Positions 13,639 through 64,000 of a stretch of 64,000 nucleotides of DNA are shown here, in pieces; the stretch's first letter is position 1; each line of letters begins with the position of its first letter. The stretch is from Amia ocellicauda. Taxonomy: Eukaryota; Chordata; Actinopteri; Amiiformes; Amiidae. The notes under the pieces are model-generated. The model saw nothing but the letters and a program-made list of their open reading frames with translations. It was not told the DNA's origin and ran no database searches. The stretch spans positions 62,001 to 126,000 of the forward strand of contig NW_027102719.1 of assembly GCF_036373705.1 (NCBI RefSeq). Direction: 5' to 3'. The translations under genes were made by a program, and so were the position numbers.

Positions 13639-13674
<36 letters not shown>
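13633..13674. repeat. CA microsatellite
   Basis: A (CA)n tract with one TA interruption, just downstream of the BTG remnant. The copy is at 51295-51337. Confidence 0.9.
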
Positions 13675-13676
<2 letters not shown>

Positions 13677-17376: not shown

Positions 17377-17384
17377 TCTAACCC

Positions 17385-18056: not shown

Positions 18057-18174
18057 TCTAACCCATAGCAGCCTAATGCGTGGTATTTCTAGCTACTGGG
18101 AAGGGTGCTATTTTATTGTGTATGTATTCACACTGAAATTCAGACGTTGCATTACGGGTTCGCCATCCCTGCCA

Positions 18175-18176
<2 letters not shown>

Positions 18177-18212
<36 letters not shown>
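18177..18212. repeat. GT microsatellite, short allele
   Basis: Eighteen GT units. The same site in the second block (55847-55986) has seventy units. Confidence 0.95.
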
Positions 18213-18213
<1 letters not shown>

Positions 18214-18660
18214 AGTCCGACAGAGCAGAGCAGCGGCTGCAGCTGCGTGATTTCCAATGACACCGACACGTTCAAAAGAACCGTAACGTCGGAGCTCATC
18301 AATACTACAGTCTTTAATCATTTAGCACCGGGGCCCGTTTAATACCGGGTTGGTACACAGCCCTTCTCATGGCCAGTGAAGCAGTGTTTTTTTTTCTTAT
18401 CTAGTGAAGTAAATGTGCTAACGTTACTTAAAGGTTAAGCTTTCTAGCTGACGTTTTATTTGCGAGTCTACCAGCTCCTCACTTTTGCCATGTTCAGCTT
18501 CGCCTATCATACCTGGTGTTCATGCTTTGCAAGAAATGTGGCCATTGCCTCTCTGCTTCTTTCGATTCCTTTTCCTCTCTGTCCACTGATTTTTGCCTTT
18601 GGTGAGGCATTTTGACTCGCTAGTCAGTTTCCGCTTTGCTGAGCTACAAAATGCACATCA
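18213..18660. other. Non-coding sequence before block A2
   Basis: Contains ordinary mixed sequence leading into the THAP-like frame. No promoter element can be supported. Confidence 0.3.
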
Positions 18661-19050
18661 GTGTGTTCCGCACATCTGACTGGCCAAGTGTTTCGACCGC
18701 ACCATTTTCACAATAACAGCGGGGGAGTGGGGTATCAGATGTCCCGCTGCGTGAGGCTTCCTCTAGTTCAACTGCGTGTTGAGCTTTCTTTTCATACTTT
18801 CCCTACCATGGAAGATACTCTCAAAAAGTGGATACAAAATATTTGGTGTGAGCAGTTCAGCATAACCCCTCATACTATCGTCTGCAGTCGCCACTTTCAA
18901 GAGGAAGATATGAGTGAGCCTAAGCTCCAGGCTAAACGGTCCCGAATTAATAAATTGGACAGTTTACTGTACAACCATGATAATAAGAAATCAATTCTGT
19001 ACAACATGAAAAACAGGACAAAAATCATTTCACTGATTCTAGGATTTTGA
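18661..19050 (+). pseudogene. THAP-domain-like remnant, copy 2
   Basis: This is the longest copy (129 residues). The frame opens 26 codons before the methionine that lies at the window edge in copy 1, and the added residues give no Cys-x2-Cys. It keeps SFHTFP, the Trp, and CSRHF, and ends without the tail insertion of copy 1. As in the other copies, the zinc site is incomplete. There is no sign of introns or a transposase domain downstream. Confidence 0.55.
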
Positions 19051-21416
19051 AAATGGGGCGGGGGCCATAAGGAGGCCATGATTATTACAGAGAGGTCTGC
19101 TAGGGGGGTCTGGGGGCATGCTTTTAAAATTGGTTTTAAAAACTCAGTTTGTAAGTCAAGATTGAAGCAAATTACAAGGATAAGCTGGGCTATTCATAAC
19201 AATCCAGCATTAATGTACCACCATATTTGCTACCATTTGCTAGTGACAAATGTATTTTAAAATGAACACAATAGACAACGGTGATGCCTTCTTGCCATGA
19301 ACACAAGACAATACAGACAACTTTTCCACCCGCCTCACCCCCAAAAGTGCTTCAATATGGACACATTCCTTGAGCATGTGTTCAGTGCAAGAGGGAATGG
19401 TATTAGTGAACAAAATAGGGTCCCCTTAATATGCAAAAATAAAGAAAATGCCTGACTGGAGAGAATGGGTACACAACTCCCCCCAACATCACTAGAATGC
19501 ATCTTTAACACTGTATGTTAAGAAGTACCTTTTACAACAAAGTGTTATGACGTCAAACAAGTATTTACATGCAAAACAAAATCTATGTATTAATGTCTGA
19601 ACAATAAGTTATGAGTGTAACATTCAATCCCTGGACCCTTATGTAACATTATATACTGTGCAAATATATACAAATAGGTCAAATAAAAAACAGCACTTAT
19701 TTGTTCAATACATGGCAAAAAGGTGCTAAAATGATTTACCAAGAAAAGAACACAAAAACTTGTGAGCTAAAACATATTTTTTTAACAATCAATAACAAAC
19801 AATAAATAACATTAACGATTAGTATTATTTTTACTAAAAAGAAAATCATATTTGTTTTAGTTAATATGATTAATGTATATAAAAAGTATTTACTTTGAAA
19901 AACCACACTATTAAATGAAAATACATTTTAACACTATAACAAGGTAATATAGTACAAATATAACTGAAGAAACAGTAACAGCTAAACACTCAAAGATAGA
20001 GGAGGAGCAACCTCCTCTGCCTCTGTGGACCAGCCTCCTCTGATGTATGGTAACCCTAAACTAGCTATCACCATTCATCAAATTGTCTTTGTCATAGCAG
20101 AAATAAAATCCAGCACAGCAAGAGTATTTCAATGGTCAACTTACTGCGCACTGTCTGGTCCTGAGACTGACCTGCAGTGCGCATTGGAGAGCAGAGCGCA
20201 GCAGCAGGTGTGTTTGATCCAGAACTGCTCTCTCGCACCTCTATGCACCAGCCTCCTCTGGTATGTAGGTAGGTAGCAGTGGCCACACTGAACACAGGGC
20301 CCGATCTGTAATCAATGTATACCAGTGATGGCACCAGTGACTTTTCTAGTCTTAAACCCCCCCCACCAAGAATTGGGTCTGAGTTCATGGTCATTGTGCT
20401 TGTACATTAGTGTATGCGTACAGTTACAATTTACAGTATCCTTGTATGTGCTCGCTTTGCTTTGTGGAATGATGTTCGTTGCTTTATTGTTGTGTGTTTC
20501 AGATGATCATTTTATCATTTTCAGAGTTAACATAACTAAAGATTCAGCAATAATTTGGTGTTCATATGTGTGTAGTGTTATCGCTATTCAATATAGTGTG
20601 CCCAGTGTGCATAATGAGAAACATGTTCAGCTCATCTGCTCTGATGTTATGGATATCAAAAATGTCAACCCTCCACAGACACACACACACAGAGACACAG
20701 ACACAGACGCACTAATAGGGACAAATTTTACTCCCTCAATAAACAGGCGGACAAGGAATAATCAGGACCTGATTTAACTGAAATAATACCAAAAAAGTTT
20801 ATTGAGCTACAACGAAGCGCTCCGGAGATGGTCACTGGGCAAGACACATCTAAAGTTTTTCTAAAGAACTTGCTATCATATACAAGAGGACTCCTTTTGG
20901 TTTCTGGGCAACTAGATGATGGTAATGAGGTACCTCAAACTTTAACACACACGTCTCCTGTGTCTTACATTATGTTCTTTCTATGTCCTTGGATGAAAAT
21001 GTTTTTCTAAAAATCACCTGCACAGAACTACTGTACCTGTCCTCTCCGGAGCCATACACAAAGCTTAAATTCATATATGGGTTACACAATCTTGCTGCAA
21101 CAATGGTGGGAATATAATATATTTGGCACTCAGACAGGGCACTGTCCCACATCACACACAGAGACACACACACACAAGCACAGACACACACAGACAGCCA
21201 GACAGACACAGACAGTGTGCTTGACAAATACTTCCCCTCACAGTCAAGTCAACATGAGCCGCATTATCTAAAAGAAGAACCCATCATTTCCTTTTGTGTC
21301 AATATCAGCGAGACAGGGATTAAAAAACACATCTGAAAATGCTACTTGTACAAGCACGCTGAGATGCCCCGTCATCAGTAGGCGTGCAGAACAGTATGGT
21401 GACAAATGTCTTGTGT

Positions 21417-21507
21417 GGCTCTGTGGCGCAATGGATAGCGCGTTGGACTTCTAGTGAAAAGGGCAGTGGTCATTCAAAGGTTGTGGGTTTGAGTCCCACC
21501 AGAGTCA
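21417..21507 (+). tRNA. tRNA-Arg(UCU) with intron, mutated T-loop (A2)
   Basis: Sequence and folding are as in 59192-59282, with an 18-base intron after position 37, but the T-loop reads TTTGAGT instead of TTCGAGT. The changed base is the invariant C56, which is also in the B-box of the internal promoter. Probably weak or inactive, unlike the copy in A3. Confidence 0.7.
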
Positions 21508-22104
21508 GTGCTCACTTCATTAAACTTAGAGCTTGCTGGGCTTCCTTGTGACAGCCAGAGGTATCTTGCAGTCAAGTGCCTCGCTGATGCCTTCACTTCT
21601 TACTTTTCTGGAATGCCAACTTTGTCCCAAATCCTTGCTTGACTATCAAGACCTCATACGCTGCTTCTTTTCCTAGCCACTGTCACTGTACCAGTCCCCC
21701 TCCGTGTCAGTTGCATCTCCGGGAACAGCTGGATCAGGTGGCCTTGTACTTAAGGCCATGGACTACTAAGCCATTGTGTTTTGCACCCGTGGCTTTCTAT
21801 CCCACCATCGTTGTGGGCATTCCTTGTTTGACATTTCTTGACGACTGACGCCGTGTACGTCCAATGGACAGTTCCAAGATTCGCAAGACAGAGCTACTTG
21901 TGCATTATTGCCCGCTTAACCTGGCTGCCTCTCGAGTGAGCAAAGCCATTTTACCAAATAGAAGAACCCATCATTTCCATCCGTCTCAAAATCAGCGAGA
22001 CAGGGATTTAAAAAACACAACTGTAAATGCTACTTGTCAAATCACGCTGAGACGCCCGGTCATCTGCAGGCATGCAGAAGAGTATCTTCGTCGTACAGTT
22101 TTGT

Positions 22105-22142
22105 GGTTCTGTGCCACAATGGATAGTGTGCTGGACTTCTAG
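22105..22142 (+). pseudogene. tRNA-Arg 5'-half fragment (A2)
   Basis: First-exon fragment ending at TTCTAG, followed by a (CA)n tract at 22145-22183. Same as 3549-3586. Confidence 0.6.
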
Positions 22143-22143
22143 T

Positions 22144-22188
<45 letters not shown>

Positions 22189-22299
22189 TACAATTCAATA
22201 TTCAATGTGCAAACAAGTTTAGCCAGAAGAAACAGAACTCTTTCAATCAATAAATCATGAATATACATTACAAATCGATTCAGAATATGCATAATACAA

Positions 22300-22686
22300 T
22301 GTAAAAGCCAGACACAGGGATGGAGAGAATCTCTGGTTCCGTTGGTGTCCGGGCTTTATTGTGGTTCACAGGGTAAACGGGACAAAATACAAGGGGTAAA
22401 AACAACCAAAACGAAACATCCACACAAAACAGGGTGCTCCGGGCAGTCAGGGTTGGGAGTGTCAGTCCTCCTTCTCAGCGGGTTAGCTGCCTCCATCTGG
22501 GAAGGAGAGGGATTAAATAGAGAAGGCACAGCTGCCACTGACGTCACAATCGCCTCGGTGCTCATTGCCCGCAACCGTGAGTCCACAGCCTGTTAGCGAG
22601 GGAGTGACAACACAGCTGTGGCACATGAGCACCTCATCAGCAGACGTCAGCAGCAGCCGTGCCGTGACAGACAGCGGCCTGTCACA
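22300..22686 (-). mobile_element. Solo LTR of the gypsy family, reverse orientation (D2)
   Basis: The 387-base segment begins TG and ends CA and is flanked by the 5-bp repeat TACAA (22295-22299 and 22687-22691). Read on the minus strand it matches the LTR at 33880-34253: TATTTAATCCCTCTCC box, AATAAAGCCCGGACACC, and the end TTTTACA. Block A1 has the site without the insertion (about 3725-3740). No internal sequence remains, as expected after recombination between two LTRs. The copy is at 60061-60447. Confidence 0.9.
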
Positions 22687-22691
22687 TACAA

Positions 22692-23105
22692 TTGTATATT
22701 TCCTGCGTTCCGTTCCTGCACTCTCTCATTCACCCATTCTAGCTGAGGCAGCCAGTGAGCCCACACATGTGCTATCCCTTCCTCTTCCTCTCACTTCACT
22801 GCTATATCAGCGATGACATCATAGAAATCTCTCACCTGACAGCAATGACATTACAGAGCACATACATTATGTCTCTCGCCACACTGTCAGTGTTGACTTT
22901 CTCGCTCAGTATGCCAGCTCTCCCGGAAACACTGCAATACGTGGATGAGTTTGTACCATTTTTGGATGCTCTACCCTGCTGGGGCGGAGCTGTGATCCAG
23001 CTGAAAAGCAGGTCAGGCATGTGGGCACCTGGGCAGCGAAAGATGTATTCGTAATGAAGAGAAACCCAGGTCCAACCCTCCGGTCCAGCCACAGACAGCC
23101 ACAGA
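22692..23105. repeat. R repeat with coding-like stretch (copy in D2)
   Basis: Matches 3741-4130 at lower identity and 60453-60866 almost perfectly. The shared open stretch reads YVDEFVPFLDALP and AVIQLKSRSGMW. It is interrupted after 23099 by the large inverted-repeat element, whose target duplication CACAGA is at 23100-23105. Confidence 0.6.
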
Positions 23106-23548
23106 AGTAGTATAGATGGCGGCATCACTTATTTTGACAGCTGGAAGTCCCGCCCTCCCTATGAACCGTTGAACGGGAACTCCTCTCTCCTTCCCAGCAC
23201 CCCCCTTGGGTTACCATTTGACCCTCCCTTGTCAGCCATCTTGGATGATATCGGCTATTTTGGATGTCAGCCATCTTGGCTGATATCGGCCATTTGTAAG
23301 GTCATAGGTCATCTGGTAAGATGGTAGCCATTTTGTTAGGGTGACATCCATCATGGTGAGTGTCCAAGTGCACCTCACCCTGCTGGTGTGGAGATGTAAC
23401 GTTTAATAGCGTAAACTGTGTTTTTAAGGTTATATTGTTTTCATGATACTGTGTTGGAAAATTAAGAAATAAGAAAATAAAAGTTTTATATATTTTAGGT
23501 TATAATGTTTTATGATACTGTTTAAGTAAATAAAAAGAATAAGAAAAG

Positions 23549-23615
<67 letters not shown>

Positions 23616-23666
23616 TTATATTGTTTTATGAAACTGTTTTGGTAAATTAAAAAATAAGAAACATTT

Positions 23667-23702
<36 letters not shown>

Positions 23703-23737
23703 AGGTTAAATAGAGAATAAGAAAATAGAAGTTTTAA

Positions 23738-23792
<55 letters not shown>

Positions 23793-25865
23793 TATATTGT
23801 TTTATGATACTGTTTTAGTAAATTAAAAAATAAGAAAAGTTTTAAATATATATATATATTTAAGGTTATAAAGAGAATAAGATAATAAAAGTTTTATATT
23901 TTATTTTAGGTTAAAATGTTTTATTATTTGTTTTAGTAAATTAAAAAATAAGAAAAATAAAAGTTTTATATATATACAAGATTATATTGTATACATTTAA
24001 GAAAAATAAAAGTTGTAAATACACATATATATTTTATTTTAGATTATGTTTGATTATACTGTTTTAGTAAATTAAAAAATAAGAAAAATAAACGTTTTAT
24101 ATATATTTAAGGTTACAATGTTTTATGATACTGTTTTAGTAAATTAAAAAGAAATACGAATATTTACTCAGAGTGGGATTTGAACCCACATGTGTTTTTA
24201 GTTTATATGTTTTATGATTAGGCTTAGGATGATACTGTGTTTGCAAAATAAAAAGGTAAGAAAAAATCAATTAAGAAATGTATAGACTTACATATATTGC
24301 ATGTCATTACATATATATTTAAGCAAACACAGATAAACACACATACCTATATCTCTTTAGTTTATATTTATCAATAGACAATAGAGAACAACAGTGAAAT
24401 GTATAGAATTATATCTGTACATTTTGACCAGCACTGTACTTATTATATTTGTTACATTAGTGAATGCTCAAACATAGCCTTGACATGTATCATATTTAAG
24501 AATATACTGCATTTCATTCCAATACACACACACACACACACACACAAACATATATATATATCTTGTTAGGTTTTATTTATCAATAGACACTAAAGACATG
24601 CACACCACATTTCTTAGAGAGACACAGTGAAGCACTATTTGTGAATACTCATATGTAATAAATAATATATGTATATATGAATTGTTTGTGCTTAAATGTA
24701 TAGAATTAATAAAATACACACACACACACACACAATGGTGACTTTTATTGTGACAAACAAGCATTTTACAACATGGAACATAGTCAGAAGTAGAAAAAGA
24801 TACTCCATGAAATGTTTTATAGATACTTGTAATCATTAATTTCTTGTTCACAACACCAACATTGGACAGAAAGAAACTCTGACCTGTACAGAGTAATGTC
24901 ATTTCCAGCATATTCCATATATATTCTATTCAGTCTTTCACTCTTGGCTTCTTTTTCAAAGTTATACCAGGTTCTGGTGACAAAGTACATCAGGTATCTA
25001 TTGTAAATAAAGTGAGAAACACTTAAGTTTCTATTCCTTTGGAAATACCTTATTTTTCAAACCTACAAATACATGGTGACAACTGCAAGCATGACACATA
25101 TACAAAACACAGAAATAGGGACCACATTGCAAGGATATAATAAGCACAAATGGTATTTTACTGCAAATTTTAAGTTTTGTAAAATTATTTATATAACTTC
25201 TAGGAGTAATCTGCAAACTACATAGTGAAAATGCAATCAGTCTTCAGGAAACACACACAGCAGACTGAAATAAGCACAACGACATATTTATATGAACCAA
25301 AACTGCATTCTACTAAACCCTGAAATTCTGAAAAATCACTACAAACTCTGTGTTTTGTAAAATGGCTTATTTCACAGACACAGAAACAAATAGGCTCACC
25401 CTCAACATATTCCAACACTTGTTATGATGTAAACTAAAAGGTTTACCAGTAGTACAGGGGTATTATTAATCTATTCATGCAACTTTTAGACACTTGTCTA
25501 ATACAGAGCTAACAACTGCATTGATAGCGGGTAGCAGGGCTTTGACAATGCTGTGCGGTGGGGTTTAAAATGACTTTGTAGGCCAGGGCTTCAAAACCTT
25601 ACCCCATTTTAACATTTTCAAATTAGCCTCCAACCCCTAAAATACTAAGACATGTTTTTTTGTATCATATGTATCATGTTGTATTACTATGTACATTAAT
25701 GTGGTTTATAATTTTGATTTAATTTGACATAATTTTATCATATTTTTAATTACAAATTCATATATTTAAATAACAAATACTATATAATAATAGTAATAAT
25801 AATGCAAAAACATATTAAGCAATCATATTTTTACTTACAAAATAATATATATAAAATAACAATAT
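23106..25865 (+). repeat. Left arm of the inverted-repeat element
   Basis: The outer 300 bases are GC-moderate (GCCATCTTGG motifs). An AT-rich minisatellite follows at 23400-24170 (about nine copies of a 65-100 bp unit with TTTTATGATACTGTTTTAG), then long (AT)n runs at 23551-23612, 23668-23698 and 23742-23788. A 3' tRNA remnant lies at 24166-24190 on the minus strand. Short CA runs are at 24523-24544 and 24715-24734. Open frames here are under 115 residues, are low in complexity and are not recognised. Confidence 0.8.
24166..24190 (-). pseudogene. tRNA 3'-end remnant in the left arm
   Basis: On the minus strand GTGGG TTCAAAT CCCAC forms a perfect T-arm followed by TCTGAGT. The rest of the tRNA is not there. 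The same remnant lies in the right arm (31461-31485, plus) and at 62019-62043 (minus). Confidence 0.5.
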
Positions 25866-25884
25866 CGAGCGTGGTATTGACGGT

Positions 25885-26469
25885 ATGGAGAGACCCCGTT
25901 CCTCCTCCTCCCGTCCCCGCTGCTGTGCCACGTGTGGCCACCGCATGCTACCGGCTTGGAGTGGTGACGTGATCTGCCCCCTCTGTCAGGGACCGGACCC
26001 GCGGGGTCCTAGTCACGTCCTGAAAGACAGGGGGCGAGATGCTGCACCAAGATGGACCAGATCTGTGCCCTACTGGCTGCTCAAGGTTTATTTAGCCGCC
26101 CTCTCCTCATGTCATGTCAGGATTGATGGCGAGCCTCCGGGCCCTCATTTTTTAGCAGCGCAGTTTCTGAAAGGTGCACGTAGGCAGAGGCCTACCCACG
26201 CTCCTTCTTTGCCCGCATGGCGCCTTGATGTAGTGCTGGACGCGCTTTCTAAGGCCCCATTTGAGCCCTTGCAGTCATATGACTTAAGGTTTGCATCACT
26301 GAAGACGGCGTTTTTGCTGGCAATCACGTCAGCGAGTTACATGCCCTGTCTGTTCACCCTGTGTGTGTCCGTTTTGCAGGAGATGGTTCCAGGGTTACAC
26401 TTTGACCTAATCCTGCATTCCTCCCGAAGGTGCTGTCTCCTTTCCATATCAACAGGCCTATTGAGTTGA
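25885..26469 (+). pseudogene. DIRS zinc-finger segment fused to tyrosine recombinase N-half
   Basis: Residues 1-50 carry two Cys pairs (CATCGHRM and CPLC), as in the N-terminal gag-like protein of DIRS elements. From about residue 90 the frame follows the DIRS tyrosine recombinase (QFLKGARRQRPTHAP, DALSKAPFEPL, SLKTAFLLAITSA). The sequence jumps from one protein to the other, so everything between them, including reverse transcriptase, is deleted. The position of the first catalytic Arg, just after LLAITSA (family KRV), reads SYM here. The frame then drifts and stops. Confidence 0.75.
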
Positions 26470-26544
26470 TGGCTTTCCATCCACCACCCTTCTCTTCGGA
26501 GGAGGAGAGTAGGCTACACCTGTTGACCTGCTGCGGGCTCTCAG

Positions 26545-26878
26545 GTGCTATTTGAAGCGCACCAAGGACATTCGAAGTTCGGACCAATTGTTTGTGGCCG
26601 GGCGCTTTCAAAGCAGCGCCTCTCGCACTGGATTGTGGACACCATTACCACGGCTTATGAGTCAACTGGAGCCCCAGTGCCTGAACACCTGGTGGCCTAC
26701 TCGACTCAAGGTGTAGCCACGTCGTGGGCCCTTTTTCCAAGGCGCCCCACTGGCAGACATCTGTGTGGCTGCGAGTTGGGTCTTGCCGCACACCTTTGTT
26801 CGGTTCTACAGGCTGGACGTGACGGGCCCAGTTCCTTCTATTGAGAATCCGGTGTTGGCTTCAGCTGAGTCGCAGTAG
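26545..26878 (+). pseudogene. DIRS tyrosine recombinase C-half, catalytic residues lost
   Basis: In a shifted frame the recombinase continues: GRALSKQRLSHWIVD, then VAYSTQGVATSWA. The family has HSTRGVASSWA here, so the conserved His and Arg of the H-x-x-R box have become Tyr and Gln. A further frameshift precedes the end (CVAASWVLPHTFVRFYRLD-like). With the N-half changes, the enzyme must be inactive. Confidence 0.75.
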
Positions 26879-27039
26879 CCTGTTAGGCACTGGCTCCTGG
26901 CTTTTCTATCCCTGTCTGCCCCTGTTGAGCATGCTTGGGAAAAGCAATGCAGAACCGTTATCCCTTCCTACCGGACTGTGACTTGTATACAGTTCATTCT
27001 ATAGGTGGGAGTGCATGTGTTTTTTACACGTGTACCCCG

Positions 27040-27510
27040 CCATTGTACATAGTTCCTTTGTCAGCAGGCCTTGGCCCCTCCCTAGCTATACTAGCTGTGC
27101 TGAGGGCCGCTGCTGCTGTATTCAGCAGTAGGCTTTGAGTTTGCTCTTGTGCCCCGCTGTGTATATAGTTCATTTATTGACATAAGTAGAGCATCTGTTG
27201 CCGCTAGCTTCCGCAGTGGGTATCCTGCTCCTGTGTCATGTGTGTGGTGCATGAACTGGCTCCTGCGCCCCGCAGTGTATATAGTTCTTTAGAATATACA
27301 GTTGAGCTTGTCCGCTCCTTATTAAGTTTAGCATGGACAACTGCTCCTGTTGTTAGCGAGGGCACTCGTGCTTCGCTATGTATATAGTTCCTTTGCCAGC
27401 AGTCTGTGGCCCCGCCCTAGCTATGCTAGGGCTGAGGCCACTGCTGCGGTGTCCAGCGGAAGGCACTTGAGTTGGTTCTTGTTGGTCCACTGTGTATATA
27501 GTTCCATTAT
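27040..27510. repeat. About 113-bp tandem repeats in the DIRS 3' region
   Basis: The motif TATATAGTTC or its variant recurs near 27047, 27162, 27279, 27381 and 27495. Between the motifs come diverged GCAG/GGCC-rich segments. Five units are visible. Confidence 0.65.
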
Positions 27511-27922
27511 TCGTAATTGAACTATCCAGCAGTGGCTATCTAGTCTGGTTAGCCCGCTGTATGTTGAGCACGGGCTCAACGGACTGCGACCTGTGCTTAT
27601 ATGGTGTGGTCTGGGTATTGGCCCTGCTCCTAGCCCTGCTAGTAGAGCAGGAGACTGCTATTACTAGGCTTCATGGTAGGCACAAGGTCTTGTTGCCTGT
27701 GGATACACCATTGCTTATTTCTTCCCAGTTCAGCGTGACTGTGGTCTTCGCGTCTGAGCAGCCCAAATGTGGCCCAAGGGGCCCCTGTGGTTCTATCATA
27801 GAGTTGGTACGGCTCCTAGTAGGTTCGCCTCGGGGCAGGCTCTCTTACCAGCTCGCTGCCTCCTCCCTTGCGACGGTTTGGTTATACTGTAACACCTCCC
27901 CCTTGGGCAGTGCTTCTGACTC

Positions 27923-28232
27923 GAAAGATAACGATAGGTTGCGTATGAAACCCCGGTTATCTGAGAAAACAAGCACTGCCCAAGGGTTGCAAGCTCGCGC
28001 GGGAGTTCAAGCTCCCGGCAAAAAGAGGAAGTCCTTGTGCAGACGTCACCTTTTATACAAACAGGAAGTGGAAGGGTCCTGTTTGAGTGACGGGCACAAG
28101 GGCCAATGGCAGCTTTGATAGACAAAAGTCTTCGATGCGTTCCAGCGATGCACGCTGAAAACCCCTCCCCCTTGGGCAGTCCTTCTTTTCTCAGATAACC
28201 GGGGTTGCATATGCAACCTATCGTTCTTTGTC
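27923..28232. repeat. Inverted repeats at the DIRS 3' end
   Basis: The segment 27923-27985 (CGATAGGTTGC, CCCCGGTTATCTGAGAAAA, CACTGCCCAAGG) recurs reversed at 28169-28232. A short extra copy of CCTTGGGCAGTGCTT at 27900-27914 can pair with 27972-27985. Terminal and internal inverted repeats are typical for DIRS elements, which use them to form circular DNA. Confidence 0.7.
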
Positions 28233-29745
28233 TATGGTTAAATCCCTCTCACTTTGTAACTTTTACTAGTAAGTCAAATTGAGATTTTAAAAGTTGGTAC
28301 ATGTGAGACAGAGCCAAGAAGGTTGAATTCAGACTGTAGGTTGTTTATGTACATGGGTAAATTACTTTTGCTAGCCTAGTATAGTACTATATACCAATGC
28401 TTTATTGTCCTTCAGGCTAAATCATTTTGTATACCAAACAATGGTGAGTGACATATTCTGAGTAATGTACTTAAACTAGTGCTAATCATGCTCTGAAACC
28501 AACCCATAGAGAACAAGGTGAAATCTGGATTAATGGCAAAGCACAGCCATAAACTGTCAACATAATCAAGCCCAGGTAGAAATATAGATGTCTAATTATT
28601 TTGAGCACTAATCTTACATTTCATAAAGAAAAGCATTTAATTCTTAGCAATTGTTAGGTGTATGCTGTACGTATTCCAGTTAGTTCACTGTAATGACAGA
28701 AATGAGAAGTTCATTTCTTTAGCACACTCACGGAAAACCATTTATTTTTAAACAGTTACTAGATAGCCAGTTTAGGCCTTCATCTTAGTTATTTCTAATA
28801 GCAAGAGTGCTTAAAATTATTAATTGAATTATATATCTTTGTTCCCCCTTTTTCTTACTGCTCTCATAAAATAACATTTTATTCAAGCAATAACAGGGTA
28901 GCCTAAATATACAACATATCTTAAAGTACAAGGCATCTGAAAGCTGTGTATGGTCTCAATGCATTTGATGCGGAGGATTAATTCAACTGAAAATGGTCAA
29001 AACTGTGGACTTTTATTGAATGTTAAATTTGACAGTGTTCTCTCTTAAGGACCTGTTGCCTGTGGGACGTTGCTGCTTTGGTTGTGTCCAGTGCCATTTC
29101 AGATAAGAGAGGCTCTGCAGGACAAGCAGGACAGAAACCCGTCTCACAGACACTCTGCCTGCTCTGCATCTCCATTTCCCCTCTCCACCGCACACAGCTG
29201 AACGTTATTCTGAATCTTACACAGAGCGCTCAGCTTCTGACGCTGATGGCAACATGGGGCCTGGCTCCGAGCCTGAGGAAAACCATGAGGTAATTCAAAC
29301 TTATTTAATTTCTATACTGTGAAATGTCAGATTGAAAGTGGTTTCTGTTCTTAATGTTTGTATTGTTTATGTATTTCATGTATTTTTGTACAGTTTTGTG
29401 TTGACGAGTCCTACATCAACATGAATGTGAATTTCAATGTGAAGAGCACGTGTCATGCTCTGTAATGCAAGGGAGCAATGAGGGGCTGTAGAGACACTCA
29501 TAAGAGTAGCAGGAGCACTTTTTTATGAACTACTAATTTGTTATATTTTAATAGAATATGAAATGTAGTAGAAAGTTGTATCAGATCAGACCACTGGACA
29601 GAAACACCCCACCAAGACTGAGTTTTCATGTTTCTGCACATGTCACCTACAAACTGTTGACAGAGTGGATGAGGGTCTACAGCAGAGGTTCCCCATCCTG
29701 AGGTTGTGACAAAGTCAGGGTGAGTTTTGTTTAATATGTTTTTAA

Positions 29746-29777
<32 letters not shown>

Positions 29778-29783
29778 ATTATT
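28233..29783. other. Loop sequence of unknown nature
   Basis: No recognised gene. An exon-like open stretch at 29094-29291 (starting after GCCATTTCAG, ending at ATGAG|GTAATT) is discussed as rejected. It ends in a (ATT)n run at 29745-29775 beside the right arm. Confidence 0.35.
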
Positions 29784-32359
29784 ATATTGTTATTTTAAAT
29801 ATATTATTCTGTAAGTAAAAATATGATTGCTTAATATGTTTTTGCATTATTATTACTATTATTATATAGTATTTGTTATTTATATATATGAATTTGTAAT
29901 TAAAAATATGATAAAATTATGTCAAATTAAATCAAAATTATAAACCACATTAATGTACATAGTATAACAACATGATACATATGATACAAAAACATGTCTT
30001 AGTATTTTAGGGGTTGGAGGCTAATTTGAAAATGTTAAAATGGGGTAAGGTTTTGAAGCCCTGGCCTACAAAGTCATTTTAAACCCCACCGCACAGCATT
30101 GTCAAAGCCCTGCTACCCGCTATCAATGCAGTTGTTAGCTCTGTATTAGACAAGTGTCTAAAAGTTGCATGAATAGATTAATAATACCCCTGTACTACTG
30201 GTAAACCTTTAAGTTTACATCATAATTTTTGTAAGTGTTGGAATATGTTGAGGGTGAGCCTATTTGTTTCTGTGTCTGTGAAATAAGCCATTTTACAAAA
30301 CATAGAGTTTGTAGTGATTTTTCAGAGTTTCAGGGTTTAGTAGAATGCAGTTTTGGTTCATATAAATATGACGTTGTGCTTATTTCAGTCTGCTGTGTGT
30401 GTTTCCTGAAGACTGACTGCATTTTCACTATGTAGTTTGCAGATTACTCCTAGAAGTTACATAAATAATTTTACAAAACTTAAAATTTGCAGTAAAATAC
30501 CATTTGTGCTTATTATATCCTTGCAGTGTGGTCCCTATTTCTGTGTTTTGTATGTGTGTCATGCTTGCAGTTGTCACCATGTATTTGTAGGTTTGAAAAA
30601 TAAGGTATTTCCAAAGGAATAGAAACTTAAGTGTTTCTCACTTTATTTACAATAGATACCTGATGTACTTTGTTGCCAGAACCTGGTATAACTTTGAAAA
30701 AGAAGCCAAGAGTGAAAGACTGAATAGAATATATATGGAATATGCTGGAAATGACATTACTCCGTACAGGTCAGTGTTTCTTTCTGTCCAATGTTGGTGT
30801 TGTGAACCAGAAATTAATGATTACAAGTATCTATACAACATTTCATGGAGTATCTTTTTCTACTTCTGACTATGTTCCATGTTGTAAAATGCTTGTTTGC
30901 CACAATAAAAGTCACCATTGTGTGTGTGTGTGTGTGTGTGTGTATTTTATTAATTCTATACATTTGAGCACAAACAAATCATATATACATATATTATTTA
31001 TTACATATGAGTATTCACAAATAGTGCTTCACTGTGTCTCTCTAAGAAAAGTGGTGTGCATGTCTTTAGTGTCTATTGATAAATAAAACCTAACAAGATA
31101 TATATATGTTTGTGTGTGTGTGTGTGTAATGGAATGAAATGCAGTATATTCTTAAATATGATACATGTTAAGGCTACGTTTGAGCATTCACTAATGTAAC
31201 AAATATAATAAGTACAGTGCTGGTCAAAATGAACAGATATAATTCTATATATTTCACTGTTGTTCTCTATTGTCTATTGATAAATATAAACTAAAGAGAT
31301 ATAGGTATGTGTGTTTATCTGTGTTTGCTTAAATATATATGTAATGACATGCAATATATGTAAGTCTATACATTTCTTAATCGATTTTTTCTTACCTTTT
31401 TATTTTGCAAACACAGTATCATCCTAACCCTAATCATAAAACATATAAACTAAAAACACATGTGGGTTCAAATCCCACTCTGGGTAAATATTAATTTTTC
31501 TTTTTAATTTACTAAAACAGTATCATAAAACAGTGTAACCTTAAATATATATATATAAAACGTTTATTTTTCTTATTTTTTAATTTACTAAAACAGTATA
31601 ATCAAACATAATCTAAAATAAAATATATATGTGTATTTACAACTTTTATTTTTTTTAAATGTATACAATATAACCTTGTATATATATATATACAACTTTT
31701 ATTTTTCTTATTTTTTAATTTCCTTTAACAAATCATAAAACATTATAACCTAAAATAAAATATAAAACTTTTCTTTTCTTATACTCTTTTTATTTACTAA
31801 AACAGTATCATAAAACAATATAACCTATTGATTATATATATATCTGTATTTAAAACTTTTATTCTCTTTTTATTTACTAAAATAGTATCATAAAACAATA
31901 TAACTTTAAATATATATATGTATTTAAAACTTTTCTTATTCTCTTTTTATTTACTTAAACAGTATCATAAAACAATATAACCTTAAAAACACAGTTTATG
32001 CTATTAAACATTACACCTCCACACCAGCAGTGTGAGGTGCCCTTGGACATTCACCATGATGGATGTCACCCTAACAAAATGGCTACCATCTTACCAGATG
32101 ACCTATGACCTTACAAATGGCCGATATCAGTCAAAATGGCCGATATCATCCAAGATGGCTGACAAGGGAGGGTCAAATGGTAACCCAGGGGGGTGCTGGG
32201 AAGGAGAGAGGAGTTCCGGTTCAATGGTACATAAGGAGGGAGGGTCAAAGAGTAACCCAGGGGGGTGCTGGGAAGGAGAGAGGAGTTCCAGTTCAAAGGT
32301 ACATAGGGAGGGCGGGACTTCCGGCTGTCAAAATAAGTGATGCTGCCATCTATACTACT
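29784..32359 (-). repeat. Right arm of the inverted-repeat element
   Basis: Reverse complement of the left arm. The minisatellite part (31490-31990) is shorter and lacks the long (AT)n runs. Near the outer end a segment of about 82 bases (GGTGCTGGGAAGGAGAGAGG) is duplicated at 32183-32350. A 3' tRNA remnant lies at 31461-31485. Confidence 0.8.
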
Positions 32360-32365
32360 CACAGA

Positions 32366-33879
32366 CACAGTTAGCCACAGCCACGGCTTCTTCCAATTCT
32401 CGTCAGTGTTCCAGATTCGATGTTTTTTTTCTTCAGTGACGTTATAAACACGCACGTGGGGAGCACATCAAAACCCAGTTTTGTGATTCAGTTACAGAAA
32501 CAACTGACACAGCGGAGCAGTAGGGGTTGTAACATTTTTTGGTCCAAGGTCTGGACCACAGCGACTGAGTGATCCGGACCTCGGCACTGTGGTCCACGGA
32601 GTGGTCCCAATCACGTAACGCAAATTGGGATGGGTTTTTGTTTAGTTTTTTTGGACACACCGTATAAAACCCATTTACTGTCAAATATATTATCGACATA
32701 TCCAAACTACAAACATAATGATCATAAATGTACAATATTAATAGTATAATTCTCATTTGTAACATAGCCGATAGCTGATTTCTTTTTTTAATCTTATCTA
32801 TCAGACAATTTGTAGGAAGCTGTGCTAACGTTACTCTGAAAAAGGCGCTTACATTGAGCAACTTTGTCATTCTGAATGAAATTATTCAAGTTATAAATTT
32901 TTCCTCATCATGACTGAAGAGAAAAGATAGCTTATTTAGAATCTTATCTTTAATTTAATGTCAGCCTATTTACATGTCCTCTGTTTGCGCTCTGCCAAGA
33001 AATGTTTTATCAACTTTTTTGGTTAAACCATATCTTCCTTATTTTATCACTGTGAGATCTAGCAACATTAAAAACAAAAGCATAGGTTGTTTTGTTTATG
33101 TATGGTTAACATTGTAATAGTTGGTATTTTAAAGAGAGATTATAAGAGATGTATTAACGTATTGATCATCTGATGCCCTTTGTCTTTTCTTGAAGGATAA
33201 TGTCATTATGAAGAAGATAAAACTTTTTTTTTTTAAAACACCTCCCCCCAGCAGGATTTGGGTCGCCTCCGCACTGTTTCTGCTGAAACAAAAAAACAAG
33301 TGTCAATCTCTGCAGGAATCTACTCCGGCTCCCCCTTCTGGTGATGAAGAGGAACCCGAGTCCAAGATGCTTCCAACCAGCCCTCAGGCGCTCCCTTCGG
33401 CTGTAGGTCACGCTCCAGGGGGCCGGGGGAGTTAAGAGGGTGTCACTGGACGGGGACGACAAACGCCTCCAGTGACAGACGGACGCACACAGAGAGAGAA
33501 AGAGACAGAGAGAGAGAGTTGCACTTCCTCCTGCAATGCAATAAATATGCCCAAAATAAGGGACACATTCCTTAACAAAATAATGAATGCCACCCTACCT
33601 TTGACAAAACTGAGAAAAAATAAAAATGGTCAGTCCTCCTGGAGGAGGGACACACAGCCTCCCTGGCTGCCCAATATGTCACCGCCTGCCACAGCCTGAG
33701 GGGCACAGTGACACATGAGCACCAGCTGTAAATAAAATGTAAATACTCATTTGTAATGCATGTCATTGTATTTCCAAAAAGGAATCTGTAAACACTAAAC
33801 CTATTTTCTTTAGTTCTATGTATTAAAGATCATTTATAGTTTATTACATTTTGTTTTTCTGTACTTTTATACATCTTAT
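32366..33879. other. Region E, left part: no recognisable gene
   Basis: Sequence present once in the window. Inverted GGTCC/GGACC words lie at 32545-32620. At 33340-33390 a short stretch (GATGAAGAGGAACCCGAGTC) resembles part of the R repeats (near 4095). An AGAG-rich run lies at 33490-33520. Open frames are below 145 residues and are not recognised. Confidence 0.4.
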
Positions 33880-34253
33880 TGTGATTTTGGCAGGACGCTG
33901 TCTGTCACTGCATGGCTGCTGCTGACGCACACTAATTAGGTGCTCATGTGTTGCAGCCGTGTTGTCCGCTGCATCGCAGACAGCTTGTGAGCTCACAGCT
34001 GCAGGCAATGATCACTGATGCGACTGTGACGTCATTGGCAGGTGTGCTTCATCTATTTAATCCCTCTCCTTCCCCGAGGGAGACTTTATTGTGACTGCCC
34101 GGAGCACCCTGTTTGTGTGGATGTTTTGTGTGCTGGTTTTGCCTTGTTTTCCCCTTTTTGTGTTTTTTTCTGTTGGACTATTGTGAACCCCAATAAAGCT
34201 CGGACACCGCCGGAACCCGAGACTCTCTCCATTTATTGTGTCCGGCATTTACA
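33880..34253 (+). mobile_element. 5' LTR of a gypsy element, region E
   Basis: The 374-base LTR starts TGTGATTTTGG and ends CATTTACA. It contains CTATTTAATCCCTCTCC and AATAAAGCTCGGACACC. It matches the solo LTR at 22300-22686 and the partial LTRs of block B. Since gag sequence follows, it is the left LTR. Confidence 0.85.
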
Positions 34254-34255
34254 TT

Positions 34256-34272
34256 TGGTGGCCAATGTGGGG
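34256..34272 (+). promoter_or_regulatory. Probable primer binding site
   Basis: TGGTGGCCAATGTGGGG follows the LTR after two bases. It differs at three places from the tRNA-Lys primer site TGGCGCCCAACGTGGGG, so tRNA-Lys is the likely primer. Confidence 0.5.
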
Positions 34273-34320
34273 AAGCTTTGTGACATACTTACCCTGAACT
34301 CTGTACCTGGAAGGACAGCT

Positions 34321-34905
34321 ATGGAGGCGTCTCCAGTGGAACAGTTGTTGGCCCCAGTGGTGAAGCCGCAGGCTCAAAAACAACAAACTCTCGAGACGCT
34401 TGTCCAGCAACTTCAAGTACCAGCTCCTGCACCTAACCCTGCTGTGGCCGCAGCAAACCCGGCTTGGGCAGGTCTGCACATTCCAAAGATGGGACCGGAG
34501 GACGACCCAGAGGCTCTGAATTTCTGTCCAATATTAAAGATCCTAGGCTCACATTGTCTGATTTGGCTGGGGCACAATTGGGACATGTCTCTGGGGACCG
34601 ATCACCATTAGTGACTGCAGGTGATGAGAGGGGCAGGGACAGCCTACCCTCTGACTCCAGTCGTGTAGCAGCCAACAGTACCCTGTTGGACCCAGGGGAA
34701 GGAACGAGTTCTGGGACTCACCTCCTCTCTCCTTCTTCCAGTGGAAGGCCCGACACTGGATCCCGCCTTCAACCGGGTTTCCGATTTCACTATGGACCAG
34801 ACACAGGATGATGCCCTGGGACATATATATGACCAGGTCAGAGTTGTTGATGGTTGCATAGTGAATACACAGAGGGCACTTTGTGTTTCTCTCCAAACCA
34901 GCAGC
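34321..34905 (+). pseudogene. gypsy gag start and pre-integrase remnant, region E
   Basis: The ATG at 34321 opens a Gag N-terminus (VEQLLAPVV, a Gln-rich stretch with LETLVQQLQ, then PKMGPEDDPEAL, the start of the capsid-like part). The frame then jumps to a segment also present in block B just before the integrase (SNIKDPRL, SDLAGA). Further on TLDPAFNRVSDF, DDALGHIYDQV and VVDGC fit the region that precedes the integrase zinc finger in Gmr1-like elements. The integrase itself is cut off by the Tc1-like sequence. This copy shows what block B lost between SDLAGA and GHLCRDKTL. Confidence 0.65.
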
Positions 34906-34913
34906 CAAACCGA

Positions 34914-35566
34914 TCATGCTGGATGATGTTGCAGACAGAATAACGTTCACCACGGTGCCTCCAGACTCTTTCACGAATACCAATCGAGCTGCACGGTGCT
35001 GGGCTGTGAGCAAGGGTCCCACTAGAGGATGACGGGCCCTCGTGCCACCCTCATAGAGTCTGTTTCTGACAGTTTAGTCAGAAACATGCACACCAGTAGA
35101 CCGCTGGAGGTCATTTTGGAGGGCTCAGGCAATGCTCCTCCTGTTCCTCCTCGCACAAAAAAGCAGATACTGGTCCTTCTGGTTCTTCTGATAGCACGGA
35201 TGAATGTGACATCCTGAAGGAGCTGGACTACCTGTGCAACCTGAATGGGCTGCAGGGAGCGCCTCATAATTCCAGTAGTGACAAGGACACTAGCAAAAGG
35301 CAAAACTAGAGAAGAATCAGTCAGGAAGGATAAGGAGAGAGCAATCGTCTGTGGCCACCACCTGCAAAACCATTCCCTTTTTGGGGTTGTCTTGCTGTTG
35401 CCTATCTCCGGTGCACCTGCTGTCACTTTCATTTGCACCAAAACAAGAGACAGTGATTCACAACCGCGTAGGCTTCCTAACTGTACAGATTAATATGCCT
35501 GAACTGTAACTGACTTGGTATTATGCTGTGATGATTACTTGTTCCCTTATTTTTTTGAGAGGTGTA
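34914..35566 (-). pseudogene. Tc1/mariner-like element, 5' end with broken transposase
   Basis: Read on the minus strand it begins at an inverted-repeat end (CTCAAAAAAATAAGGGAACA, 35541-35562). The transposase N-terminus with a helix-turn-helix follows (MRRSLQPIQVAQVVQLLQD, from 35280). After deletions and frameshifts come LTAQHRAARLVF and, near 34925-34975, GERYSVCNIIQHDRFG. A transposase of this family would be over 300 residues; less than half is left, and the DDE core beyond GERYSVC is missing. It cuts into the gypsy remnant. Confidence 0.7.
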
Positions 35567-36010
35567 TTATAGAAGATAGCCTTGAGAAGGCGGCCACAGA
35601 ATTGCGGGAATCCGTGACTTTCAACACTTATGCAACCGAGTCGAGGTGACCAACAGCTCAATGTCTGGTTGGCACCATGGCTTAGATGTGCCATTCATGA
35701 AACTTGCGTTGATTCTTGAAGCCACTGGCATTGCTTCCCTCTCCAAGTCTGTGTAATAAGGAATTGGCAGGAGCCCACGAGTTGAAACTATCAGAGGACA
35801 GAATGCAAATGAAGTGTTCTGAGAAAAGCAAAGCGGCGAAAGGACATTTTCCCGTGTGCATGTAGATGGCCGACTTTGACACGGCTTGATGAAGTCTTGT
35901 GGATCCTACCACTGCTTAAGTGCACTACTACGCTTGCCTTCAGGGAGTTTCATGTCAAACTTTCAAAAAACAGGACTCGTACTAGACGGATGAGCACCTA
36001 CGATCGGTCT

Positions 36011-36084
36011 TGGCCGATGTGGGGATCGAATCCAAGACCTTGGCGTTATTAGCACCACGCTCTAACCAACTGAGCTAGCCGGCC
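36011..36084 (-). tRNA. tRNA-Ile(AAU)-like gene, degraded
   Basis: On the minus strand, 74 bases form GGCCGGC acceptor, a normal D-arm (GCTCAGTTGGTTAGAGC), an anticodon arm with AAT and a T-loop TTCGATC. Position 7-66 of the acceptor and two T-stem pairs do not match, so it may be a pseudogene. The identity call rests on the anticodon and on strong likeness to vertebrate tRNA-Ile(AAU). Confidence 0.65.
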
Positions 36085-36210
36085 ATCAAAAGGAGTCTCT
36101 CTGCCAGGCATTTGCTCATGTTTATGTAATTTGGCTGCAAAATGCATTACACACAAGTGTGAAAAGAACACTTTTGCAATTCCTAGCATTGGTGATGATA
36201 TAAATCAATC

Positions 36211-36325
36211 TGTCAGGAGTGGGATTTGAACCCACGCCTCCATCAGGAGACCAGAAAACCCTTCTACACTCTTCAAGGGAACAACACCTTAAGTCTGGCA
36301 AATTAGACCACTCGGCCATTCTGAG
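36211..36325 (-). tRNA. tRNA-Leu-like gene with intron and long variable arm, degraded
   Basis: On the minus strand the sequence has the Leu-type D-arm (ATGGCCGAGTGGTCTAA), CCAGA/TCTGG anticodon stem, an intron of about 30 bases, a variable arm and a T-arm GTGGG TTCAAAT CCCAC. The anticodon reads TAA, while vertebrate intron-bearing tRNA-Leu normally has CAA. Two acceptor pairs mismatch, so it is likely a pseudogene. Confidence 0.6.
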
Positions 36326-36355
36326 AGGATGTATACGTCCACCGGGAGATTATAT

Positions 36356-36891
36356 ACTGATCAAGAAAACTGCGGGAACACTTAAATCACACATCGGATC
36401 TCCGTGATCGAAGTCTAGGAAACCTCAAGATCTTCACCGTACATTGCATAATTCGTAACTCTCCCACCTCCATGCTTTTGAGACTGTACTGGGAGACACA
36501 GCAAACTTTCTTCAGATGGCACGTATGGATGTGCCATACTGGAGGAGCTGGACTACCTGTGCAACCTGAATGGGCTGCAGGGAGCGCCTCATAATACCAG
36601 TAGTGACAAGGACACTAGCAAAAGGCAAAACTAGAGAAGAATCTGTCAGGAAGGATAAGGAGAGAGCAATCGTCTGTGGCCACCACCTGCAAAACCATTC
36701 CCTTTTTGGGGTTGTCTTGCAGTTGCCTCTCTCCGGTGCACCTGCTGTCACTTTCATTTGCACCAAAAAAGGAGAGAGTGATTCACCACCGCTTAGGATT
36801 CTTAACTGTACAGATTGATATGCCTGAAGTGTAATTGACTTGGTGTTATGCTGTGATGATTACGTGTTCCCTTATTTTTTTGAGAGGTGTA
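36356..36891. mobile_element. Short deletion derivative of the Tc1-like element
   Basis: About 540 bases with a degraded left end (CTGATCAAGAAAACTGCGGG AACAC-like) and the right end TGTTCCCTTATTTTTTTGAG. It holds only the transposase 5' region. TA stands at both edges. Confidence 0.5.
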
Positions 36892-37046
36892 TTATAGAAG
36901 ATAGCCTTGAGAATGAGGCCACAGAATTGCGGGAATCCGTGACTTTCAACACTTATGCAACCGAGTCGAGGTGACCAACAGCTTAATGTCAGAAAATAAA
37001 AGAACACTTTTGCAATTCCTAGCATTGGTTATGCTATAAATCAGTC

Positions 37047-37118
37047 TGTCAGAAGTGGGATTTGAACCCACGCCTCCATCAGGAGACCAGAAAACTCTTC
37101 TACACTCGAGGGAACAAC
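37047..37118 (-). pseudogene. tRNA-Leu 3' part, truncated at the tandem junction
   Basis: Matches the 3' half and intron of 36211-36325 and stops at about 37118, where the R repeat of block B2 starts. The joint between the two large tandem units therefore falls inside this tRNA copy. Confidence 0.65.
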
Positions 37119-60866: not shown

Positions 60867-61309
60867 AGTAGTATAGATGGCGGCATCACTTATTTTGACA
60901 GCTGGAAGTCCCGTGCTCCCTATGAACCTTTGAACGGGAACTCCTCTCTCCTTCCCAGCACCCCCCTTGGGTTACCATTTGACCCTCCCTTGTCAGCCAT
61001 CTTGGATGATATCGGCTATTTTGGATGTCAGCCATCTTGGCTGATATCGGCAATTTGTAAGGTCATAGGTCATCTGGTAAGATGGTAGCCATTTTGATAG
61101 GGTGACATCCATCATGGTGAGTGTCCAAGTGCACCTCACCCTGCTGGTGTGGAGATGTAACGTTTAATAGCGTAAACTGTGTTTTTAAGGTTATATTGTT
61201 TTCATGATACTGTGTTGGAAAATTAAAAAATAAGAAAATAAAAGTTTTATATATTTTAGGTTATAATGTTTTATGATACTATTTAAGTAAATAAAAAGAA
61301 TAAGAAAAG

Positions 61310-61376
<67 letters not shown>

Positions 61377-61427
61377 TTATATTGTTTTATGAAACTGTTT
61401 TGGTAAATTAAAAAATAAGAAACATTT

Positions 61428-61485
<58 letters not shown>

Positions 61486-61519
61486 GGTTATATAGAGAAT
61501 AAGAAAATAGAGGTTTTAA

Positions 61520-61574
<55 letters not shown>

Positions 61575-62373
61575 ATTATATTGTCTTATGATACTGTTTT
61601 AGTAAATAAAAAGAATAAGAAAAGTTATATATATATTAGGTTATATTGTTTTATGAAACTGTTTTAGTAAATTAAAAAATAAGAAAAGTTTTAAATATAT
61701 ATATATATATTTAAGGTTATATAGAGAATAAGATAATAAAAGTTTTATATTTTATTTTAGGTTAAAATGTTTTATGATTTGTTTTAGTAAATTAAAAAAT
61801 AAGAAAAATAAAAGTTTTATATATATATACAAGATTATATTGTATACATTTAAGAAAAATAAAAGTTGTAAATACACATATATATTTTATTTTAGATTAT
61901 GTTTGATTATACTGTTTTAGTAAATTAAAAAATAAGAAAAATAAACGTTTTATATATATTTAAGGTTACAATGTTTTATGATACTGTTTTAGTAAATTAA
62001 AAAGAAATATGAATATTTACTCAGAGTGGGATTTGAACCCACATGTGTTTTTAGTTTATATGTTTTATGATTAGGCTTAGGATGATACTGTGTTTGCAAA
62101 ATAAAAAGGTAAGAAAAAATCGATTAAGAAATGTATAGACTTACATATATTGCATGTCATTACATATATATTTAAGCAAACACAGATAAACACACATACC
62201 TATATCTCTTTAGTTTATATTTATCAATAGACAATAGAGAACAACAGTGAAATGTATAGAATTATATCTGTACATTTTGACCAGCACTGTACTTATTATA
62301 TTTGTTACATTAGTGAATGCTCAAACGTAGCCTTAACATGTATCATATTTAAGAATATACTGCATTTCATTCC

Positions 62374-62415
<42 letters not shown>

Positions 62416-62584
62416 TATATATATATATATATCTTGTTAGGTTTTATTTATCAATAGACACTAAAGACATGCACACCACTTTTCTTAGAGAGACACAGTG
62501 AAGCACTATTTGTGAATACTCATATGTAATAAATAATATATGTATATATGATTTGTTTGTGCTTTAATGTATAGAATTAATAAA

Positions 62585-62617
<33 letters not shown>

Positions 62618-63746
62618 GGTGACTTTTATTGTGACAAACAAGCATTTTACAACATGGAACATAGTCAGAAGTAGAAAAAGATACTCCATGAAATGTTTTA
62701 TAGATACTTGTAATCATTAATTTCTTGTTCACAACACCAACATTGGACAGAAAGAAACACTGACCTGTACAGAGTAATGTCATTTCCAGCATATTCCATA
62801 TATATTCTATTCAGTCTTTCACTCTTGGCTTCTTTTTCAAAGTTATACCAGGTTCTGGTGACAAAGTACATCAGGTATCTATTGTAAATAAAGTGAGAAA
62901 CTCTTAAGTTTCTATTCCTTTGGAAATACCTTATTTTTCAAACCTACAAATACATGGTGACAACTGCAAGCATGACACACATACAAAACACAGAAATAGG
63001 GACCACATTGCAAGGATATAATAAGCACAAATAGTATTTTACTGCAAATTTTAAGTTTTGTAAAATTATTTATATAACTTCTAGGAGTAATCTGCAAACT
63101 ACATAGTGAAAATGCAATCAGTCTTCAGGAAACACACACAGCAGACTGAAATAAGCACAACGTCATATTTATATGAACCAAAACTGCATTCTACTAAACC
63201 CTGAAACTCTGAAAAATCACTACAAACTCTGTGTTTTGTAAAATGGCTTATTTCACAGACACAGAAACAAATAGGCTCACCCTCAACATATTCCAACACT
63301 TGTTATGATGTAAACTTAAAGGTTTACCAGTAGTACAGGGGTATTATTAATCTATTCATGCAACTTTTAGACACTTGTCTAATACAGAGCTAACAACTGC
63401 ATTGATAGTGGGTAGCAGGGCTTTGACAATGCTGTGCGGTGGGGTTTAAAATGACTTTGTAGGCCAGGGCTTCAAAACCTTACCCCATTTTAACATTTTC
63501 AAATTAGCCTCCAACCCCTAAAATACTAAGACATGTTTTTTTGTATCATATGTATCATGTTGTATTACTATGTACATTAATGTGGTTTATAATTTTGATT
63601 TAATTTGACATAATTTTATCATATTTTTAATTACAAATTCATATATATAAATAACAAATACTATATAATAATAGTCATAATAATGCAAAAACATATTAAG
63701 CAATCATATTTTTACTTACAAAATAATATATATAAAATAACAATAT
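60867..63746 (+). repeat. Left arm of the inverted-repeat element, second copy
   Basis: Matches 23106-25865. The (AT)n runs (61313-61373, 61432-61481, 61525-61571) and CA runs (62377-62411, 62587-62614) differ in length, and one extra minisatellite unit is present near 61620. The right arm would lie beyond the window. Confidence 0.85.
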
Positions 63747-64000
63747 CGAGCGTGGTATTGACGGTATGGAGAGACCCCGTTCCTCCTCCTCCCGTCCCCG
63801 CTGCTGTGCCACGTGTGGCCACCGCATGCTACCGGCTTGGAGTGGTGACGTGATCTGCCCCCTCTGTCAGGGACCGGACCCGCGGGGTCCTAGTCACGTC
63901 CTGAAAGACAGGGGGCGAGATGCTGCACCAAGATGGACCAGATCTGTGCCCTACTGGCTGCTCAAGGTTTATTTAGCCGCCCTCTCCTCATGTCATGTCA
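63747..64000 (+). mobile_element. DIRS element, second copy, cut by the window end
   Basis: Starts with the same junction as 25866. The zinc-finger-like frame opens at 63766 and runs off the window without differing from the first copy where visible. Confidence 0.8.

Follow-up and report, generated by a model that had tools for sequence, protein, structure and literature searches.

A probable gene-less Polinton/Maverick element with giant inverted arms in a tandem array of the Amia ocellicauda genome

Introduction

The window analysed here, a 64,000-nucleotide stretch of Amia ocellicauda DNA (contig NW_027102719.1; C84:62001-126000), contains a 9,254-b element with very long inverted arms, which raises the questions of whether this unit moved as a transposon, to which family it belongs and how its arms arose. 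Comparisons across 988 Mb of genome in 385 contigs indicate that it is very probably a non-autonomous Polinton/Maverick, gene-less in the frames scanned, that it is mobile, and that the tandem array around it derives from one insertion. The superfamily is known; the gene-less form with giant arms is unusual.

Results

Architecture of the element

The arms, at 23106-25865 (2,760 b) and 29784-32359 (2,576 b), are mutual reverse complements, as the original prediction had held for arms of 2.76 and 2.58 kb; their global alignment contains 2398 identical and 85 different positions and 370 gap columns. Ungapped pieces of the inner part (23967-25865) are 96-100% alike, and pieces of the outer part, which is AT-rich with many indels, are 80-97% alike. 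Its end sequences are AGTAGTATAGAT...ATCTATACTACT. Its termini are AGTAGT/ACTACT, in agreement with the AGTAG...CTACT noted before, and CACAGA does stand directly outside both ends (23100-23105 and 32360-32365). The features are as follows (C, contig; L, locus; L084 and C7 are dispersed gene-less copies).

23100..23105, no strand: left copy of the 6-bp target duplication CACAGA; the same flank in 30/30 left-end loci read, the window's own included
23106..25865, plus: left arm, inverted copy of the right arm; its outer part is the counterpart of the Polinton terminal repeat (sequence comparison)
23106..23138, plus: 33-base end common to gene-bearing Polinton copies, those mostly with C instead of A at base 7 (end comparison)
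25866..28222, plus: foreign insert, GC-rich (about 53%), replacing about 2.1 kb of L084-type spacer (comparison with L084)
28223..29783, plus: leftover original spacer, within stretches 91-93% identical to L084 and C7 (alignment)
29747..29775, plus: (ATT)n run at the right arm's inner edge, where the L084 arm duplication ends (sequence)
29784..32359, plus: right arm (alignment with left arm)
32360..32365, no strand: right copy of the 6-bp target duplication CACAGA; the same flank in 30/30 array right-end loci read
60867..64000, plus: start of the element of the following tandem unit (left end plus left arm), truncated where the window stops (self-comparison of the window)

Independent copies and target duplications

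Both ends were examined at 12 loci outside the array; C126 (flanked as C7) and L082 and L084 (one end each) were left out. Loci are given by contig, with the position in Mb where needed.

C6: AGCGCC, 6/6
C2: CTCAAC, 6/6
C3:54.97: AGCAGG, 6/6
C18:37.44: TATTCA, 6/6
C20:28.47: GTCCAC, 6/6
C7: TAGCAC, 6/6
C23:29.75: AAAGTT, 6/6
C3:16.07: AAGGAC, 6/6; left flank read, right junction by pattern, its two differences within the element end
C28:21.34: TACTCC/TGCTCC, 5/6
C1:3.09: TAGCCA/TAGCCC, 5/6
C1:23.36: mirror-image flanks, no duplication
C20:27.18: mirror-image flanks, no duplication; two candidate right ends, both mirrored

Perfect 6-bp duplications, all different, flank 8/12 of these loci, and a further 2/12 agree at 5 of 6 bases. 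Copies ending at AGTAG beside different 6-bp duplications are what the original prediction had proposed to look for, and its claim that the unit moved as a transposon holds, as the same ends recur at other loci and most of those examined have different duplications. Ends with AGTAGTCTAG are present outside the array, where 58 exact ones are listed (36 forward, 22 reverse); two of these (one on C19, one on C193) carry a T and could be variants of the array end.

An alternative is that the arms are an inverted segmental duplication that never transposed, CACAGA recurring by chance in a CACAGA-rich stretch. Hexamer pairs agree in 15/1225 cases (1.2%) drawn from two 40-base flanks and in 15/9025 from 100-base flanks, so the window match alone is suggestive but inconclusive, and the earlier concern over coincidence was to this extent justified. 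The element also lies in a segmental array, and the empty CACAGA site that had been proposed as a check was not found in the genome, the joined flanks (37-base pattern, up to 3 mismatches) giving 0 matches. Window stretches resembling the joined flanks, at 3718-4175 (76%) and 37124-37552 (75%), cross the join by only 19 and 14 bases. However, this alternative, which we regard as extremely improbable, is refuted by 8 further loci where these ends stand between perfect 6-bp duplications of other sequence, and the duplications of independent copies settle the matter of chance.

C126 was considered as a second identical C7-type copy; its flanks are the same as those of C7, and it was taken as the C7 locus on another contig and left uncounted. 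Two guessed places on C18 and C20 (L088, L089) contained no element end. At L068/L069 (C1:23.36 Mb) and L076-L078 (C20:27.18-27.20 Mb) the host flanks are mirrored, as if the insertion lay within a larger palindrome or an assembly fold-back.

Family assignment and gene content

A same-ended copy with Polinton genes had also been named as something to seek, and such copies are present. L061, in which both ends are found, encodes an integrase core (rve, Pfam E 2e-15), and L062, with one end in the stretch, encodes a viral/organellar DNA polymerase B (DNA_pol_B_2, Pfam E 2e-16 and 3e-18). For the polymerase piece, 122 relatives were obtained at E up to 1e-3, the best named ones being from cobra, turtles, coelacanth and fishes; it matches animal proteins with a polymerase-B Pfam domain, the best at 61% to Naja. 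The integrase piece resembles integrases of known structure, retroviral included (best E 1e-6). Further frames of the same-ended copies we take to be capsid-like, Pfam being negative for those tested. An integrase and a viral-type DNA polymerase B in same-ended copies place the family in Polinton/Maverick. The suggested non-autonomous Polinton/Maverick relative is therefore borne out, with Polinton genes in same-ended genomic copies and none in the scanned frames of the window element, while the other suggestion, an undescribed family, is unsupported at the superfamily level.

Pfam detected no family in the six frames of 28230-31500 or the three plus-strand frames of 25867-28238 (E 1), a scan that took in neither the minus strand of 25867-28238 nor 31500-32359 nor the left arm itself; there was likewise no Pfam match for the insert's 194-aa frame and the spacer frames, and no Rfam match on the element. 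The polymerase B, integrase, ATPase, protease and capsid set of an autonomous Polinton/Maverick was not found in the scanned frames. This lack of Pfam genes would also suit an unrelated, undescribed DNA transposon superfamily that converged on Polintons. That explanation, to which we give next to no weight, is refuted by the window terminal region, hundreds of bases of which are common to L061, L062 and L063 at 72-87%, L061 and L062 holding the Pfam-confirmed integrase or polymerase B. Alternatively, a captured host gene could be carried as cargo in the spacer and inner arms, a possibility raised by short frames in the arm (about 30680-30769) and the spacer (about 29198-29289) that look exon-like by eye, with AG/GT borders. 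Yet no Pfam match was obtained in six frames of window 28230-31500 or L064 950-4800, host genes being sought by Pfam only, and we consider such cargo unlikely.

A survey of intact vertebrate Mavericks gives (AGT)2//(ACT)2 as their commonest end motif, 6-bp duplications, terminal inverted repeats of 46-1,447 bp and lengths of 12.7-24.6 kb (PMC8097293, Barreat and Katzourakis 2021). The window element shares with vertebrate Maverick/Polinton elements, as there described, the (AGT)2//(ACT)2 ends, the 6-bp duplication and terminal homology to gene-bearing copies. It differs from the intact ones in its length of 9.25 kb, in its arms of 2.58-2.76 kb and in having no polymerase, integrase or capsid gene detected in the scanned frames.

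The tandem array around the window copy

The window is itself tandem, 18177-26119 matching 55949-64000 and 7845-18212 matching 45531-55882 at 97-98%. When the outer 300 bases of the left arm were used as query, the best 40 of 605 candidates were the window's own on C84 and 39 on C18, all at 100%. The left flank CAGCCACAGACAGCCACAGA was found in 30/30 left-end loci read, and the right flank starts with CACAGACACAGTTAGCCA in 30/30 array right-end loci read. Since these 60 array ends share one flank pair, they represent tandem duplicates of one insertion and not transpositions.

Of the C18 left ends listed, 33/39 can be paired with a listed exact right end no more than 16 kb away, the distances being 7.1-13.0 kb. 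Gaps between listed left ends are 35-41 kb in 12/38 cases and 44.8-248 kb in the rest, in part since other left ends were unscored. The end pattern with up to 2 mismatches has 118 forward and 117 reverse matches in the genome. Exact array-type right ends, among the matches listed, number 88 by hand count (C18, 63; C19, 10; C376, 5; C62, 3; C84, 3; C120, 2; C193, 1; C199, 1). The array, which is transposon-rich with units often of 35-41 kb, occupies about 38.1-42.0 Mb of C18, near the end of that 42.25-Mb contig. A second array lies at 3.89-4.36 Mb of C19, and array sequence is also present on C62, C84, C120 and C376; window 1-64000 falls within the array. A Polinton derivative has in this way been caught inside a multi-megabase tandem array.

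Gene-less, long-armed relatives

The interior of the window element is common to dispersed copies at 90-95%. L084, on C28, has the architecture of the window element, with arms at 323-2403 and 8138-6069 that are 95% alike; its 4525-8133 matches window 28223-31826 at 91%. The right end of L084 is intact (flank GACGCC), and the left end has been lost to other sequence. The start of its spacer (about 2404-4525) corresponds in position to window insert 25866-28222, which by eye we take to resemble a DIRS tyrosine-recombinase element, although Pfam gave no match. The insert was considered as the arm breakpoint and rejected, because L084 has the arms without it. For L084 2450-4500, the best 40 of 172 candidates included none on C19, C62, C84, C120, C193, C199, C376 or in the C18 array region.

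Inner-arm sequence (L084 1583-2330) retrieved 383 candidates, the best 40 being 29 array rows and 11 outside. Eight of these 11 form four converging inverted pairs, at C28:19.29, C23:28.03, C3:16.07 and C10:37.38, and three are single (C18:31.97, C3:54.98 and C3:32.48). The C3:16.07 pair sits between both ends bearing the AAGGAC duplication, and the long-armed form therefore stands there as its own insertion.

Window 28223-30593 recurs at 92-95% in the 10.28-kb C7 copy (TAGCAC), part of it there in two tandem copies. The two ends of C7 are alike over about 0.23 kb, and a looser resemblance extends to about 0.5 kb. A C7 interior segment absent from the window has 152 candidates in the genome, of which the best 40 were scored. 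By eye, a short open frame with splice-like borders is located at window 30680-30769 and at the mirrored place in the left arm; the C7 copy is without this stretch.

Among the matches listed, closely spaced inverted pairs of the spacer segment are present at five loci (C6:46.35, C18:36.40, C28:21.34, C5:0.857 and C20:33.26), two of which are L082 and L083. The L083 arms, compared over 3.19 kb and by symmetry about 3.9 kb long, are 99.7% alike, and its flanks differ, with a 5/6 duplication. Those of L082 are 99.8% alike over 2.57 kb around a Tc1-like element; matching sequence runs on into L085, and the right end was unreached. Three palindrome forms are thereby found in this genome, represented by window/L084, L082 and L083. 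A second, smaller cluster occupies C18:25815835-25873783, where the spacer of the gene-less Polinton is repeated five times in direct orientation, spaced about 4.2 and 24 kb apart.

Discussion

Origin of the giant arms

In L084 the left arm passes into the spacer within an (AAT)n run, and a like run stands both in the spacer and where the right arm meets it. The inner arm edges of the window copy and of L084 are only about 15-27 bases apart. We propose, as a reading that has somewhat less than an even chance of being correct, that the giant arms were produced when a linear replicating element underwent copy-back template switching. Copying of such a progenitor molecule from its right end would have switched template at the (AAT)n run, giving a product with the right end on both sides, hence two working ends, and still mobile. 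Integrase and polymerase from full Polintons may recognise the ends of the gene-less element and move it. The copy-back form would then have inserted at CACAGA, its spacer carrying the foreign insert, and have multiplied with about 35-40 kb of surroundings by tandem duplication.

The arms may instead be of chromosomal origin, produced when an inserted Polinton underwent internal break repair or unequal exchange, the long-armed form being mobilised later; we hold this possible, with a lesser probability. The mirrored flanks at two loci include host DNA, as may happen when an inverted duplication takes its flanks along, or when an assembly folds back, and the arm identity of 99.7-99.8% over 2.6-3.2 kb in the L082 and L083 palindromes is that expected from gene conversion. 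Against this, long-armed copies at unrelated loci, two with distinct flanks (C3:16.07, AAGGAC, 6/6; L083, 5/6), indicate mobility, and the near coincidence of the inner arm edges in the window and L084 is what one shared event would give.

Several points weigh against our reading of the element and its arms. No empty site was found, and 2/12 two-ended loci (C1:23.36 and C20:27.18) have mirrored flanks and no duplication, so larger inverted duplications or assembly folds also occur. The match to an A32/IVa2 ATPase in same-ended copies is weak and below the Pfam cut-off. The giant-arm loci C23:28.03 and C10:37.38 are represented here by their inner-arm pairs. The window left arm stops at the foreign insert, and its own breakpoint is therefore unreadable. 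The short-repeat copies do not prove the direction of arm change: C7 holds tandem duplications and C23 has a truncated Tc1-like insert in its left part, so either could have lost long arms. C23:29.75 Mb had been considered as a pre-expansion copy and was set aside, since its left part is this insert and hence silent on direction.

Significance

In copy-back defective viral genomes, both ends derive from one end. The window element shares very long inverted arms with these and with foldback-type transposons, whereas its ends, duplications and relatives are those of a Polinton. More speculatively, and in our estimate improbably, the giant-arm gene-less Polintons could be chromosomally fixed copy-back defective genomes of a virus-like element. 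Having both ends from a single end, they would use the polymerase of full Polintons to replicate and would be in competition with these. Polinton replication has been inferred from gene content. Structured gene-less copies in which one side has supplied both ends would offer a fossil test of linear-DNA copying and, if copy-back template switching did form the arms, could record the Polinton replication mode.

The open-licence literature searched contained neither 'non-autonomous' nor 'nonautonomous' Polinton or Maverick as a phrase, and did not join Polinton with 'long terminal inverted repeats' and 'foldback'. In the portions available of open-licence papers with Polinton and 'non-autonomous derivatives', no passage on non-autonomous Polintons was found. 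Novelty is unproven, because Repbase lies outside the literature searched.

Other features of the window

Window 1-18700 is a short unit (about 18.7 kb) without a counterpart of the next unit's 22300-37117, the element included; this gap falls at a dispersed repeat (3718-4158 and 37124-37540). Matches to the tRNA family are located at 2693-2783, 21417-21507, 37780-37870, 59192-59282 and 36011-36084, 4/5 of them inside a repeat that recurs in the window, perhaps as SINE heads. Long frames are present at 4955-6073, 38294-39424 and 43054-43830, two of which are alike and of integrase type (rve and H2C2; Pfam on the first only) and one of which is Tc1-like by eye.

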